Positions 58,982 through 63,920 of a stretch of 64,000 bases of DNA are shown here, piece after piece. The position numbers and the translations under genes are program-made. The DNA is from Sulfurospirillaceae bacterium (lineage in GTDB: Bacteria > Campylobacterota > Campylobacteria > Campylobacterales > Sulfurospirillaceae). The notes under the pieces were generated by a model, which worked only from the letters and a program-made list of their open reading frames with translations, had not been told where the DNA came from and made no database searches. The stretch spans positions 62,001 through 126,000 of the forward strand of contig JAQUWL010000002.1 in NCBI GenBank assembly GCA_028692875.1, read 5' to 3'. The stretch's first letter is position 1. Every line of letters starts with the position of its first letter.

Positions 58982-60291
58982 TAAATGATACCCCTTAGTT
59001 GATAGCTCAAATCTCCTGCGCCAAAGCCGATAACCAAACCATCATCTAGTTTTGCGCACGATTTGGCATCTTTGATTGCCTCAATAGAAGATTCACTCCT
59101 TTTGACGCAATCCACCAACATCAAATTATACCGTGCAAACTCTTTTTTAAAGTCTATTTCTATCTCTTTTTCTCCAACTTTCCAAACCGGCAAAATAATC
59201 AATCTATCAACTCCCTCGAAACAGCTCACAAAAGCCTCCAGATTGTCGATGGTTCTTGAGTATTTGTGCGGTTGCCAAATAGCAGTAATCTTTGAAAATC
59301 CCATCAACTGCGAGTATTTTTTGACCGATTCGATAGTTGCTCTAATCTCTGTTGGATGGTGCCCATAGTCATCTATGAGAGCAAAATTTTTCTCTACATG
59401 TAGGATATCAAACCGCTTCTTAATGCCTTTAAAATTTTTTAGCTTTTCTCTTATAAGCTCAACATCCATCTCATTTAGTGCTGCCAAAATCGCCAAAGAA
59501 GCGTCTATCGCCATATGTTCTCCGATGCCCCAAACCTCAAAACGCCCCAAATCCTTCAACACAAAAGAGGTAAAAGGCTCATTGTCTCGCATAACTGTTT
59601 GGATATCTTTTATATCACGGCTTGGATAAAGACGGATTGCCTCAAGACTCTCCAGCGTGCCTAAAAACTCATCTTCTGCATTTATAACTCGAAGTGTTGC
59701 ACTTTGCAAAAAATGCTTATAAGCCCCATAAAAACGCTCATAGTCGTAGTTATAATACTCCATATGTTCTGGCTCAGCATTGGTCACGATGGCGATATAT
59801 GGATTTGAATTTAAAAAACTCTCGTCACTCTCATCGGCTTCAAAAATAACATTGTCGCCATCTCGAAAATACATATTTGTTCCAAACTGTTTGCTCTCTG
59901 CTCCGATGATGACCGTACCGTCTATCAATGACGCCAACATCGCACTTGTGGTACTTTTGCCATGTGCTCCGCAAACCGAAAAAACACGCTTGTCTTTTAG
60001 TATAAATAGCAAAGCCTCTTTTCTAGAAAATGTTGCTATGCCCTTTTTCTTAGCCTCAAGCAATTCGACATTTTCGCCTTTAATCGCAGCAGAATAAACC
60101 ACCAAATCTTGATCTTTGATACACTGCGAACTATGTGGAATCTGTATCTCAATACCCTCTTGCTCAAGCGCAGAAGTAATCTTTGTAGCTCTTATGTCTG
60201 AGCCAGTAACCGTGTATCCTTTTTCTTTTAAAAAACGTGCCAATGCCGAAAGACCAATACCACCAATACCTACAAAATGAACTTTTTTCAA
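58981..60291 (-). CDS. murC: UDP-N-acetylmuramate-L-alanine ligase
   Basis: 436 residues. Adds L-alanine to UDP-MurNAc, the first amino acid of the peptidoglycan stem. HFVGIGGIGLSALARFL, GSDIRATKIT, VCGAHGKSTTSAMLASLI (P-loop), EADESDESFLNSNPYIAIVTNAEPEHMEYY and DYGHHPTEIRATI are typical. TTG 60291 overlaps the dapC stop, with AAAGGA before it. Shorter than E. coli MurC, as usual in this phylum. Confidence 0.96.
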   Translation of the reverse strand: MKKVHFVGIGGIGLSALARFLKEKGYTVTGSDIRATKITSALEQEGIEIQIPHSSQCIKDQDLVVYSAAIKGENVELLEAKKKGIATFSRKEALLFILKDKRVFSVCGAHGKSTTSAMLASLIDGTVIIGAESKQFGTNMYFRDGDNVIFEADESDESFLNSNPYIAIVTNAEPEHMEYYNYDYERFYGAYKHFLQSATLRVINAEDEFLGTLESLEAIRLYPSRDIKDIQTVMRDNEPFTSFVLKDLGRFEVWGIGEHMAIDASLAILAALNEMDVELIREKLKNFKGIKKRFDILHVEKNFALIDDYGHHPTEIRATIESVKKYSQLMGFSKITAIWQPHKYSRTIDNLEAFVSCFEGVDRLIILPVWKVGEKEIEIDFKKEFARYNLMLVDCVKRSESSIEAIKDAKSCAKLDDGLVIGFGAGDLSYQLRGII

Positions 60292-61418
60292 TGGTTTCCT
60301 TTTATAAAATCACTCAAATTTTTCAAAACGCCTGTCATCGTAGAGTTTTTCTCAACCAAGGCTATTCGCACATAAGCATCTGCTATTCCGCCCCTACCAA
60401 GGAAACTTCCTGGTAAAACTTTGATATTTTTTTCCCTATACAAAGCCTTTGTAAAAGCCAAATCATTCTCTACATGTAGCCATACATAAAACGTCGCCTC
60501 GGGCATCGCAACGCCCAATATCTCTTGTGCTGATTTTGCATTAAGAGCGTACTCTTTACGAATAATCTCTACATGTACATCATCACTCCACGCCGCAGCG
60601 GAGGCGTATTGTAAAGGAAGCGGAATGGCAACCCCGACATAGGTTCGATACTGCAAATAGGACTTTAGTATCGCCTCATCTCCTGCGATAAAACCTGAAC
60701 GAAGAGCTGGAGCAGAACTTCGTTTTGATATCGAGTTAATAACAAGCACATTTTTAAATGTATCATTTCCTACATGTAGGCTCGCTTCAAGGAGTGAAGG
60801 CGGTTTTTTGTCGACATATATCTCGCTGTAACACTCATCATTGAGCAAGACAATATCGTGCTTTAACGCAAACTTAACCCACTCGCCAAGCTCTTCAAGA
60901 CTCAATGTTGCCGTAGTCGGGTTATTTGGAAAATTTAAAATAATCAAATCCGCCCCCAGCAACTCTGGCAAACTCATATCTGGTTTAAAATCGTTCTTAC
61001 ATGTAAGGTTGATATGCAAAACTTTGGCTCTACTTGCGATAGCCGCACCCTCATAAATCTGATAAAAAGGGTTTGTGTATGCCATAACTGGATTTGGTTT
61101 GTCGTGAAGCAAAAACTGCGGGAAGTTAAAAAGCACCTCACGTGTTCCAAATGTCGGAATCAGCTCGCTCTCTTTTAGATTCACACCAAAACGACGCTTT
61201 ACAAATCCCAACTGTGCCTCTTTAAGAAAAGGCTCTCCTGCGGTTTTTGGGTATTTGTTGAGCCATTTTGTGTTTTGTCTTAACGCCTCTTGAATAAAAT
61301 CTGGCGTCTCAAACTGTGGCTCTCCGATGGTTAGAGATATGGGCTTGTAGCTAGGATTTGGTACGATATCTTTGAGTAAATCTGTTAGTTTTTCAAATGG
61401 ATAGGGTTCAAAATGCAA
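60288..61418 (-). CDS. dapC: Succinyldiaminopimelate transaminase-like PLP aminotransferase
   Basis: 376 residues, fold-type I aminotransferase. FEPYPFEKLTDLLKDI start, GEPQFETPDFIQEAL, FGTREVLFNFPQ, NFPNNPTTATLSLEEL, NDECYSEIY, and the PLP lysine in VINSISKRSSAPALRSGF. The pathway partner dapE is at 53.7 kb. TTG 61418 with AGG seven bases upstream gives the family N-terminus; the longer reading adds a basic stretch. Four TACATGTA copies lie within 540 bases of this gene, the densest cluster in the window. Confidence 0.9.
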   Translation of the reverse strand: MHFEPYPFEKLTDLLKDIVPNPSYKPISLTIGEPQFETPDFIQEALRQNTKWLNKYPKTAGEPFLKEAQLGFVKRRFGVNLKESELIPTFGTREVLFNFPQFLLHDKPNPVMAYTNPFYQIYEGAAIASRAKVLHINLTCKNDFKPDMSLPELLGADLIILNFPNNPTTATLSLEELGEWVKFALKHDIVLLNDECYSEIYVDKKPPSLLEASLHVGNDTFKNVLVINSISKRSSAPALRSGFIAGDEAILKSYLQYRTYVGVAIPLPLQYASAAAWSDDVHVEIIRKEYALNAKSAQEILGVAMPEATFYVWLHVENDLAFTKALYREKNIKVLPGSFLGRGGIADAYVRIALVEKNSTMTGVLKNLSDFIKGNH

Positions 61419-61687
61419 TGGTTTTCCTTTTTTATATTTTGGATTTTTGGACAATTTTCATAAAATACTTGCAATTCCTCTTTGTCAACATAACTGAGCT
61501 TAAAAATATCATCATCAACTCTTTTAAATTCAAAAATACAATCTCCTAAAGCTCCATCATTATATGCTTCAACACTTATCATATTTTCATCTTTTAAACA
61601 ATCTACGGTTATCAAGTCATACTTATTGCAAATGTATATAATTTCCTCTAACGAATACTGTTTGTTTTTTGTAAAAATTTTTATCAT
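61385..61687 (-). CDS. Unknown 100-residue protein, coupled to the nuclease ORF
   Basis: 100 residues, acidic in its middle (DDDIFKLSYVDKEELQVFYE), AT-rich, with no recognisable family. A short alpha/beta fold is likely (SLEEIIYICNKYDLITVDCL, DGALGDCIFEFKRV). ATG 61687 overlaps the stop of the nuclease-like ORF (ATGA), so translation is coupled, and its 3' end overlaps the dapC start by 34 bases. It could be an immunity or accessory partner, but nothing in the sequence proves it. Confidence 0.6.
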   Translation of the reverse strand: MIKIFTKNKQYSLEEIIYICNKYDLITVDCLKDENMISVEAYNDGALGDCIFEFKRVDDDIFKLSYVDKEELQVFYENCPKIQNIKKENHCILNPIHLKN

Positions 61688-62109
61688 AAAATAGAAGCAT
61701 TCCAATTAATCTGCATAACAGTATTTTCAACTCGTTTGAAATTCATATTTACCAATGGATCTTGGTAAATATTGTGAGATGGATTTTCTTTGAGATTTTT
61801 TACAACAAAAATAAAATATCTATCTTTTAAAAAATTTGCAGCCATGTGCTCTTTATTTGTTAAAATGATATTGCCTCTTATTTCACTAAGCCCTTTTACC
61901 TCAACACCAAAATAACATTTTTTTTCTTCTGAAGCCAACTTAAAATCAAAACCACATCCCATTTTGGTTGTATCTTGAATATCATACCCCTTAAACACAT
62001 CAATAGCTGAAAAATTGTCTCTAAAATATTGTTCTGCTGCTTGTCCCGTAATAAGTCGCTTAGCAAATGAACTTTCTTCCTCTTCTTCACTTTTGGCAAT
62101 CTCTTCCAT
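61684..62109 (-). CDS. PD-(D/E)XK/DUF3883-like nuclease ORF (probable 3' half of a split gene)
   Basis: 141 residues. GQAAEQYFRDNF, then CGFDFKLASEEKKCYFGVEVKG, which supplies the G-x-D...E-V-K pattern of PD-(D/E)XK nucleases, and ILTNKEHMAANFLKDRYFIFVV, resembling the DUF3883 family found in restriction enzymes and Sacsin-like proteins. It starts nine bases after the preceding ORF and is in the -1 frame relative to it. Extending through the A7 tract would join the two. Function would be DNA cleavage or modification sensing; this is inferred. Confidence 0.65.
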   Translation of the reverse strand: MEEIAKSEEEEESSFAKRLITGQAAEQYFRDNFSAIDVFKGYDIQDTTKMGCGFDFKLASEEKKCYFGVEVKGLSEIRGNIILTNKEHMAANFLKDRYFIFVVKNLKENPSHNIYQDPLVNMNFKRVENTVMQINWNASIL

Positions 62110-62117
62110 TAAGATAC

Positions 62118-62450
62118 CTAAATCATGGTCTTCATAAATATTTTTTTAAGTAACAATGAAAAATCTATTAAATTCAATGTATGAAAAACGTCATAAATAT
62201 TTTTACAATATTGTCTAATTTCTCTTTTATGCCGACCTTTTCGTAAATTTGGGAAAAAAGGGTCAAATTCATCTCTATAATTTTTTATTGATGCTGGTTT
62301 AATTGCCAATGCTAAACCGATAATATTAAAGGCTTCCGTAAAATTCTCAAACCCCAAAAATTTCAAACCTTCAACATCAAACTTTGATAAGTATAAACCA
62401 GCTAATATTGCTTTCTCTCTAGCTGTAAGTTTTTTAATATTTTTACTCAA
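62118..62450 (-). CDS. Helical DNA-binding-like ORF (probable 5' half of the split nuclease gene)
   Basis: 110 residues, TTG start with GAAGGG six bases upstream. Helical region LTAREKAILAGLYLSKFDVEG, then SIKNYRDEFDPFFPNLRKG, a motif I recall at the N-terminus of restriction-like and DUF3883 proteins. The last seven residues (IFMKTMI) come after an A7 run; adding one A would read on as NIYEDHDLGILMEEIAKSEE into the next ORF. The complete product would be about 255 residues. It begins inside the reading end of the MoeB-like gene region without overlap. Confidence 0.6.
   Translation of the reverse strand: MSKNIKKLTAREKAILAGLYLSKFDVEGLKFLGFENFTEAFNIIGLALAIKPASIKNYRDEFDPFFPNLRKGRHKREIRQYCKNIYDVFHTLNLIDFSLLLKKIFMKTMI
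62141..62147 (-). other. A7 slip site splitting the nuclease gene
   Basis: In the coding direction CTT AAA AAA ATA TTT ATG leads to TAG. A -1 slip on AAA AAA, or one extra A, gives CTT AAA AAA AAT ATT TAT GAA, open through the start of the next ORF. The upstream end of that frame is closed by a TAA at the edge of the run. Confidence 0.65.
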
Positions 62451-62460
62451 CTCAAACCCT

Positions 62461-63129
62461 TCATGGCTTTGGCATTCCAAACTTCTGGGTTATCAACTCG
62501 CCTTCGTCATTAAAATATAGATAATAAAGCCAATCTTTTTTGACACTGAGTCCCGCAAGATAACGCAGTGCTAGATTTGCTTGAAGTGAAGCGATGTGCA
62601 TAACTATTGGAGCTGCGATGCCTGCTGGTTTTTTATCCGTCACTTTAAACGCACTGAAACTACTTTTGTCAAAAAAACAAACTTGCCCATTGAACGCCTC
62701 AACCGAGCCATAAACCCAAGGCGTATTTTTTGCCTTTGCATACTCATCTATCAACGCTCTTGTTGGAAGATTGTCCGTAGCATCAAGTATCAAATCAACC
62801 TCGATATCCTTACATGTAAAGGCTTCAAGTCGTCCGATATGGGAACTTACCTTCACAAAAGGGCAACGATTTTCTATGACTTCTTTGACGATATCGGCTT
62901 TGTATTTTCCCTCATCGCCTACTTTAAAAGCGATTTGACGGTGGATATTGTGCACGCTCACTGTGTCAAAATCCACCACATGTATCTCGCCTATGCCGGA
63001 GCTTCCAAGTGCAAATGCAAGCGAACTGCCTAGTCCGCCACATCCGATGATAACAACTCTTTTGCTTTGCAGGTTTTGCTGCGTCTTTTCACCCCAAAGC
63101 TCTATTTGTCTATGAAAATACTCTTTCAC
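62461..63129 (-). CDS. ThiF/MoeB-family adenylyltransferase
   Basis: 222 residues of the E1-like superfamily that activates ThiS- or MoaD-type sulfur carriers. VVIIGCGGLGSSLAFALGSSG (nucleotide binding), DFDTVSVHNIHRQIAF with the Arg, and LDATDNLPTRALIDEYA are present. The C-terminal zinc CxxC pairs of MoeB are not visible, so MoeB or ThiF specificity is unclear. GTG 63129 overlaps the previous stop (GTGA) and gives MKEYFHRQIELWG, a usual start. One TACATGTA inside. Confidence 0.85.
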   Translation of the reverse strand: MKEYFHRQIELWGEKTQQNLQSKRVVIIGCGGLGSSLAFALGSSGIGEIHVVDFDTVSVHNIHRQIAFKVGDEGKYKADIVKEVIENRCPFVKVSSHIGRLEAFTCKDIEVDLILDATDNLPTRALIDEYAKAKNTPWVYGSVEAFNGQVCFFDKSSFSAFKVTDKKPAGIAAPIVMHIASLQANLALRYLAGLSVKKDWLYYLYFNDEGELITQKFGMPKP

Positions 63130-63920
63130 AAAAGCTCTCTTTTGAGAACTTGTTTTTTCCATCCCCACATTTTTCGTGCCTCTGCAAGGACATCTTTATC
63201 GACACTTGCAACCAAAATCTCCTCTTTATCGCCCAAACAAAGCTCAATATCGCCAAAAGGGGAAGTCAAACTGCTATGCCCATAAAATCTCCACGCCTCC
63301 GCACCCTCTTTGTATGAGCCGATACGATTGGCTCTTAAGATATATACATTATTTAAAAACGCTCTGCTTTTGATAAGCTCCTGCCATCTTTGCAAAGAAT
63401 CAAACGTCGAAGAGCTAGACATCAAAACGACATCTATATTTTTACGCATAACCTCTTGCCATACAGTATCAAAATGAAGCTCATAGCCATTGACGATAGC
63501 AAAACGAAATCCATCCAATACAAAAATAGGTAAGGAAAATTTTTCTAGCACATTGTCGAAAAATCGCTCCTCGTTCCAATGCTTGTAGTTTATTAAAAAT
63601 TGCTGGTCGTAAAAATGTACCGATCTTGGAGAAAAGCGTGCTGTGCTTTTATATAAATGCTCTCCTTTTATCGTAACTATAGGTGCTACAACATTTATGT
63701 CATACTCTATGCAGAGGCTTTTCAAAATCTCTATTTTATGATTAGATTGCTCTTTTATCATGCTTTTTGGCATCTGCTCTAGCTCTTTGAAAAAGCTATT
63801 GAGTGCATATTCGCTCAAAAGCAATAAATTCACACCCTGTTTTTTACAAATCTTAAAATAATAATCCAACTTCACATCACTCATAGGAAGTGTTGAGAGT
63901 TGTAACGCAGCTATCTTCAT
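63126..63920 (-). CDS. Nitrilase-fold protein lacking the catalytic cysteine
   Basis: 264 residues of the carbon-nitrogen hydrolase fold. The glutamate is kept (E37 in LLLLSEYALNSF) and a lysine is in NYKHWNEERFF, but the cysteine position reads FAIVNGYELHFDTVW with Gly145 where C-Y-D is usual. RANRIGSYKEGAEAWRFYGHSSLTSPFGD fits the fold. It may be a non-catalytic or binding member. It overlaps the MoeB-like gene and probable xseB. Confidence 0.78.
   Translation of the reverse strand: MKIAALQLSTLPMSDVKLDYYFKICKKQGVNLLLLSEYALNSFFKELEQMPKSMIKEQSNHKIEILKSLCIEYDINVVAPIVTIKGEHLYKSTARFSPRSVHFYDQQFLINYKHWNEERFFDNVLEKFSLPIFVLDGFRFAIVNGYELHFDTVWQEVMRKNIDVVLMSSSSTFDSLQRWQELIKSRAFLNNVYILRANRIGSYKEGAEAWRFYGHSSLTSPFGDIELCLGDKEEILVASVDKDVLAEARKMWGWKKQVLKRELL

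Follow-up and report, generated by a model that had tools for sequence, protein, structure and literature searches.

A split gene between thiF and dapC

The window is a stretch of 64,000 nucleotides from a Sulfurospirillaceae genome. Near its right end, two overlapping frames and a small companion ORF lie on the minus strand between a thiF/moeB-like gene and a dapC-like gene. The features of the locus are as follows.

62461-63168, minus strand: thiF/moeB-like gene of the host operon, left neighbour of the insertion
62121-62450, minus strand (stop codon at 62118-62120): N-terminal half of the nuclease gene, a helical domain with the motifs GLYLSKFD..., KNYRDEFDP and GxHKR; TTG start with AAGGG upstream
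62436-62438, minus strand: codon ATT, placed by DNA alignment opposite the ATG start of the closest relatives (L006-L012)
62232-62234, minus strand: codon for Arg73; Trp occupies this position in 72 of 75 aligned rows
About 62136-62150, minus strand: AT-rich stretch that is one nucleotide short and contains an A7 run; variable linker between the two domains
61684-62148, minus strand (61687-62148 without the stop codon): C-terminal half, the DUF3883/NOV_C nuclease domain, with D169...E184-V-K186 kept
62107-62109, minus strand: ATG, possible internal start of the C-terminal half
61385-61690, minus strand (61388-61690 without the stop codon): companion ORF of about 100 aa that overlaps the nuclease stop; homologues exist, no Pfam match
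60288-61421, minus strand: dapC-like succinyldiaminopimelate transaminase gene of the host operon, right neighbour of the insertion

The A7 run appears as T7 on the plus strand (62141-62147). The first ORF (62118-62450, minus strand) ends with TTA CTT AAA AAA ATA TTT ATG AAG ACC ATG ATT TAG, its stop lying seven codons past AAA AAA A, and the second (61684-62109, open further 5' to 62148) is reached from it by a shift of -1; on both points the first-pass annotation agrees with what is read directly from the sequence. An AGG overlaps the stop of the first ORF (62107-62120), just 5' of the ATG of the second, and could permit re-initiation.

The joined -1 reading of both frames gives 255 aa, with NIYEDHDLGILMEEIAKSEE as the bridge across the frame junction. 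The joined protein matched 80 loci in bacterial genomes, nearly all of them end to end and with a maximum identity of 73%, and in 75 of these a single uninterrupted frame covers the whole match. Because of these matches chance is excluded, and the sequence comparison confirmed that the two minus-strand frames belong to one gene that is one base out of register. The other five loci contain nonsense codons or an insertion. The first-pass annotation had read the locus as a restriction-like nuclease gene, split and rejoined by a one-base change of register, and had called for a search for fused homologues; the 75 unsplit loci are what that search returned. Homologues always encoded as two proteins, the pattern it had named as contradicting this reading, were not seen, and no homologous locus is split in two at the linker.

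Domain assignment and predicted fold

The C-terminal half matched the Pfam family PF13020 (NOV_C/DUF3883) with an E-value of 5.7e-12 and 46 bits, and the joined protein scored 44.3 bits; with a curated cut-off of 22.1 bits, the window protein falls within the family. TmtA models from PADLOC matched the same stretch, and searches of NCBIfam and PADLOC gave nothing specific other than TmtA. Residues D165, E180 and K182 are invariant in 57 relatives and correspond to D169, E184 and K186 of the window protein (joined numbering), so that the acidic residue and E-x-K pattern of PD-(D/E)XK nucleases is present in the window copy. No Pfam family matched the conserved helical N-terminal domain (KNYRDEFDP...FPN.RkGWHKR). 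The proposal that a DUF3883-like domain is fused to a conserved N-terminal domain was thus upheld by the PF13020 match and by the end-to-end homologues.

The closest intact homologue (L006) was modelled confidently with AlphaFold2 (pLDDT 89.7); the model has helices and, after them, a nuclease-like domain of alpha/beta type. Its best fold matches in the PDB were weak (E 0.03-0.2) and comprised SPARDA complexes, a tRNA-intron endonuclease, EcoRV and Hjc, and a search of solved structures by sequence gave no credible relative. In the literature DUF3883 appears as a novel REase domain (PMC3710099) and, elsewhere, as a group presumed to be Type II R (PMC10609329). The intact form is therefore predicted to cleave DNA. 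The window protein resembles the known DUF3883/NOV_C family, which is linked to restriction-modification (R-M) genes, in its PF13020 and TmtA matches and in its D...ExK residues, but differs in being a stand-alone protein of 250 aa with its own conserved N-terminal domain, and the window copy is broken.

Origin of the cassette and explanations for the break

Homologues of the companion lie directly 3' of the nuclease in six close relatives (L006, L007, L008, L010, L011 and L012). Because the companion directly follows the nuclease in these six, the two genes appear to have arrived together. A model of the companion protein had a pLDDT of 73 and no fold match. The composition of the cassette is foreign, with a GC content of 27.9% compared to 37.2% for the window. 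At least 15 relatives from the same family keep the gene order nitrilase-thiF-dapC-murC with 10-114 nt between thiF and dapC, and the site is empty; in the window, nuclease and companion fill exactly this gap. The closest relatives of the nuclease are found in Patescibacteria, Omnitrophota and other distant phyla, which implies horizontal transfer. No relative was found in a phage collection or among viral contigs. Two plasmid relatives (28-30%) were found, both adjoining Z1-domain defence-like genes.

Other genes occupy the thiF-dapC junction elsewhere. In G022 (L092:517-1467) a HARE-HTH restriction-type protein of 317 aa stands at the same junction, and in L101 and L102 the junction is occupied by other genes, on the opposite strand (PAS, rhodanese).

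Aligned at the DNA level with eight relatives, the window is exactly 1 nt short at about 62136-62150, and the lost base is not pinned to the A7 run. The first-pass annotation had attributed the split to one slip in this run. The register change of one nucleotide stands, but the alignment does not single out A7, and reading through A7 puts Asn at residue 104, where the 75 relatives have F (45), I (11), L (8), E (7) or V (4) and none has N. The full protein could be made or switched on at A7 by programmed -1 frameshifting, by slippage during transcription or by phase variation; in line with this, the second ORF lies in the -1 frame and homology extends along the whole joined protein. However, the zero frame is T AAA AAA A (CTT AAA AAA ATA), so the in-phase A AAA AAA heptamer (X XXY YYZ) is absent. 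The downstream RNA gave a folding z-score of 0.57, with 141 of 200 shuffles folding at least as well, and thus no stimulatory structure was found. The run is not conserved, the longest A run being 6 in the 75 relatives, all of which are unsplit, and runs of at least seven are frequent and harmless across the window. Together with the further lesions described below, these results make slippage at A7 highly improbable; conservation, heptamer phase, folding and residue 104 all speak against programmed slippage and phase variation.

The window copy carries further lesions. It has ATT where the ATG start of the relatives aligns, for which a TTG further upstream could substitute, and it carries the substitution W73R. 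Its terminal branch measures 0.31 compared to 0.064, 0.15 and 0.057 in three sisters (2-5 times longer), and relative-rate chi-square values were 4.3-13.1 against L006 and L008 and 0.8-7.1 against L007. The copy departs at 4 of 70 conserved positions, a number that several intact relatives equal or exceed. The catalytic residues are intact, and dN is much below dS against relatives in both halves.

A sequencing or assembly error, in which the genome is intact and the draft dropped one base, would fit the draft state of the assembly (44 contigs), the position of the break in an AT-rich, homopolymer-containing stretch, the intact catalytic residues and the low dN/dS. Against this, 75 of the 99 A/T runs of at least seven in the window sit within long ORFs that are intact, and among the window's ORFs no further split gene stood out. 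The changed start codon, W73R and the long branch are not errors of that type. We do not favour this explanation and consider it unlikely.

The split might instead be tolerated, the two domains being made as separate polypeptides through translational coupling and working together. The break falls in the linker between the domains, which is variable, an ATG 8 nt past the first stop could start the C-terminal ORF by itself, and dN is well under dS in both halves; the TTG start with its good ribosome-binding site and this ATG would allow two separate polypeptides, which counts against decay. However, none of the homologous loci is coded as two proteins at the linker, G308 and G261 being shattered remnants, and in the window the native start is altered and the branch is long. 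A working split pair is therefore very unlikely.

Most probably, the feature is a decayed copy, now a pseudogene or close to one, of a cassette gained by horizontal transfer. The restriction-like nuclease of DUF3883 type and its companion would have been acquired together and placed flush between thiF and dapC, two co-oriented genes of the nitrilase-thiF-dapC-murC operon, and loss of 1 nt between the N-terminal and nuclease domains would then halt translation after about 110 codons. We infer both the loss of function and the way in which the cassette moves. The loss, if real, would be recent, since dN is far below dS on both halves and the catalytic residues are kept.

Broken copies of the family are common in related genomes of the same phylum. 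They comprise second copies in G178 and G445, three remnants in G337 and the shattered copies of G308 and G261; intact copies occur in G178, G243, G435 and G445. The split itself is thus that of an ordinary decayed copy. The three G337 remnants (L164, L165 and L166) each consist of a 3' nuclease piece and, behind it, a C-terminal remnant of a HinP1I-type gene.

Relatives at restriction-modification operons

Between thiF and dapC in the window there is no methyltransferase (M) or restriction enzyme (R) remnant. The window copy replaces no R-M gene and does not qualify as restriction-replacing in the sense of hrgA. The family pattern is different and deserves a separate look. With an HMM built from eleven full-length C5 methyltransferases (model length 354), an N-terminal M fragment was detected on the same strand and directly 5' of an intact nuclease ORF in 39 of the 80 loci (for example L006, L009, L010, L012, L020, L023, L027, L045, L046, L051, L078 and L083). 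The median gap between fragment and nuclease is 33 nt, sometimes with an ATGA overlap, and the fragments end at HMM positions 33-220 of 354. No full-length M was found with this HMM in the 80 nuclease loci. An intact M whose C-terminus was simply missed was ruled out, because the fragments stop at positions 33-220 of 354, a short distance ahead of the nuclease. No locus has a C-terminal M piece upstream of the nuclease, and such pieces were found just 3' of it in L014 (5768-5905) and L018 (3338-3490); in these two loci the nuclease therefore stands inside the methyltransferase gene.

Further 3' of the nuclease there is often a restriction enzyme that lacks its N-terminus, followed by Vsr. N-truncated enzymes of HinP1I type were found in L006 (128-208 of 208), L078 (111-208), L009, L011, L065, L073, L081 and the Campylobacterota loci, and of HaeII type in L020 and L027; a DUF4928 type was also found. 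As a control, all 15 HinP1I loci without the nuclease, chosen as the best R matches and thus leaning towards intact operons, have a near-full-length M directly 5' of R, in two pieces in one of them. The nuclease type tracks the R type on the tree, with 5 changes compared to 12.3 in shuffles. In L045 and L051, synonymous differences amount to 18% in the nuclease and 76% in the M fragments, and the high similarity is limited to about 813 bp around the nuclease, with M cut at 165 and 135. Since the similarity is confined to the nuclease and the M cut points differ, the nuclease appears to have moved recently as a unit. The M fragments have pN well below pS, as expected if the insertions are recent and hit working M genes, or if the fragments serve some function.

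From these arrangements we infer that members of the family settle where M and R adjoin in C5 R-M operons and may remove the two together. Its members look like mobile 'restriction-replacing' nucleases. We suggest tentatively, and with somewhat less than even confidence, that a mobile nuclease gene takes over C5-cytosine R-M operons in a single step that removes the end of M along with the start of R, which would abolish both activities at once, and that it spreads by flank recombination, in a homing-like manner or as a modification-dependent nuclease incompatible with M. Simultaneous loss of M and R, if true, would be a survivable route to dismantling an addictive R-M system. What is seen in 39 loci from many phyla is a nuclease ORF touching an amputated C5 methyltransferase and often flanked on its opposite side by a truncated restriction enzyme. 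If this reflects targeted takeover, it would offer a testable answer to how cells or selfish genes dispose of R-M systems that are expected to kill on loss, and would add a new example of defence systems in conflict.

The DUF3883 domain, insertion into operons and restriction-replacing genes are already known. In searches of the open-access literature on these topics, no account was found of a DUF3883 nuclease lodged within truncated methyltransferase genes. In Helicobacter and Campylobacter, PabI-family genes are documented to enter operons, to displace resident R genes and to be inactivated by frameshifts (PMC4615327, PMC10273834), and the documented cases of this kind include hrgA and hrgC. 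The present family resembles the PabI genes in flush insertion into a co-oriented metabolic operon, in replacement of resident R genes and in frameshift inactivation. However, the R of the PabI family is a glycosylase with its own M, whereas here a nuclease is found without an intact M alongside. The genes hrgA and hrgC are referred to as 'restriction endonuclease-replacing' genes of Helicobacter and Campylobacter (PMC4615327, citing Ando 2002; PMC4687069). They are alike in that a gene occupies a former R-M position, which at the family level holds for 39 of 80 loci, and in that the restriction-type HARE-HTH gene of G022 sits at the window's thiF-dapC junction. They differ in protein family, and the wider nuclease family replaces the M/R junction of several R-M types. 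A partial resemblance to homing endonuclease genes is seen where the nuclease lies inside a conserved gene and, in the L045/L051 pair, where a segment of about 810 bp appears to have entered different methyltransferase genes as a unit. In contrast to homing endonuclease genes, the host gene here is destroyed with no intron or intein preserving it, the points of insertion differ, and the window copy sits between genes rather than within one.

In many loci, among them L045 (5732-5944), L046 (5729-5953) and L051 (5732-5910), a small zinc-finger-like ORF of a second kind (WECYLCGEE...GNYHPLC), without a Pfam match, replaces the companion 3' of the nuclease. Other C5 methyltransferases are absent from several of the genomes with M fragments and present at full length elsewhere in others. 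The only C5 methyltransferase of the source genome (G000) lies on another contig (C4:23082-23996; L134/L135) and is unrelated to the window cassette; it is full length, and the gene next to it encodes a candidate nuclease of 253 aa that is of a different kind.
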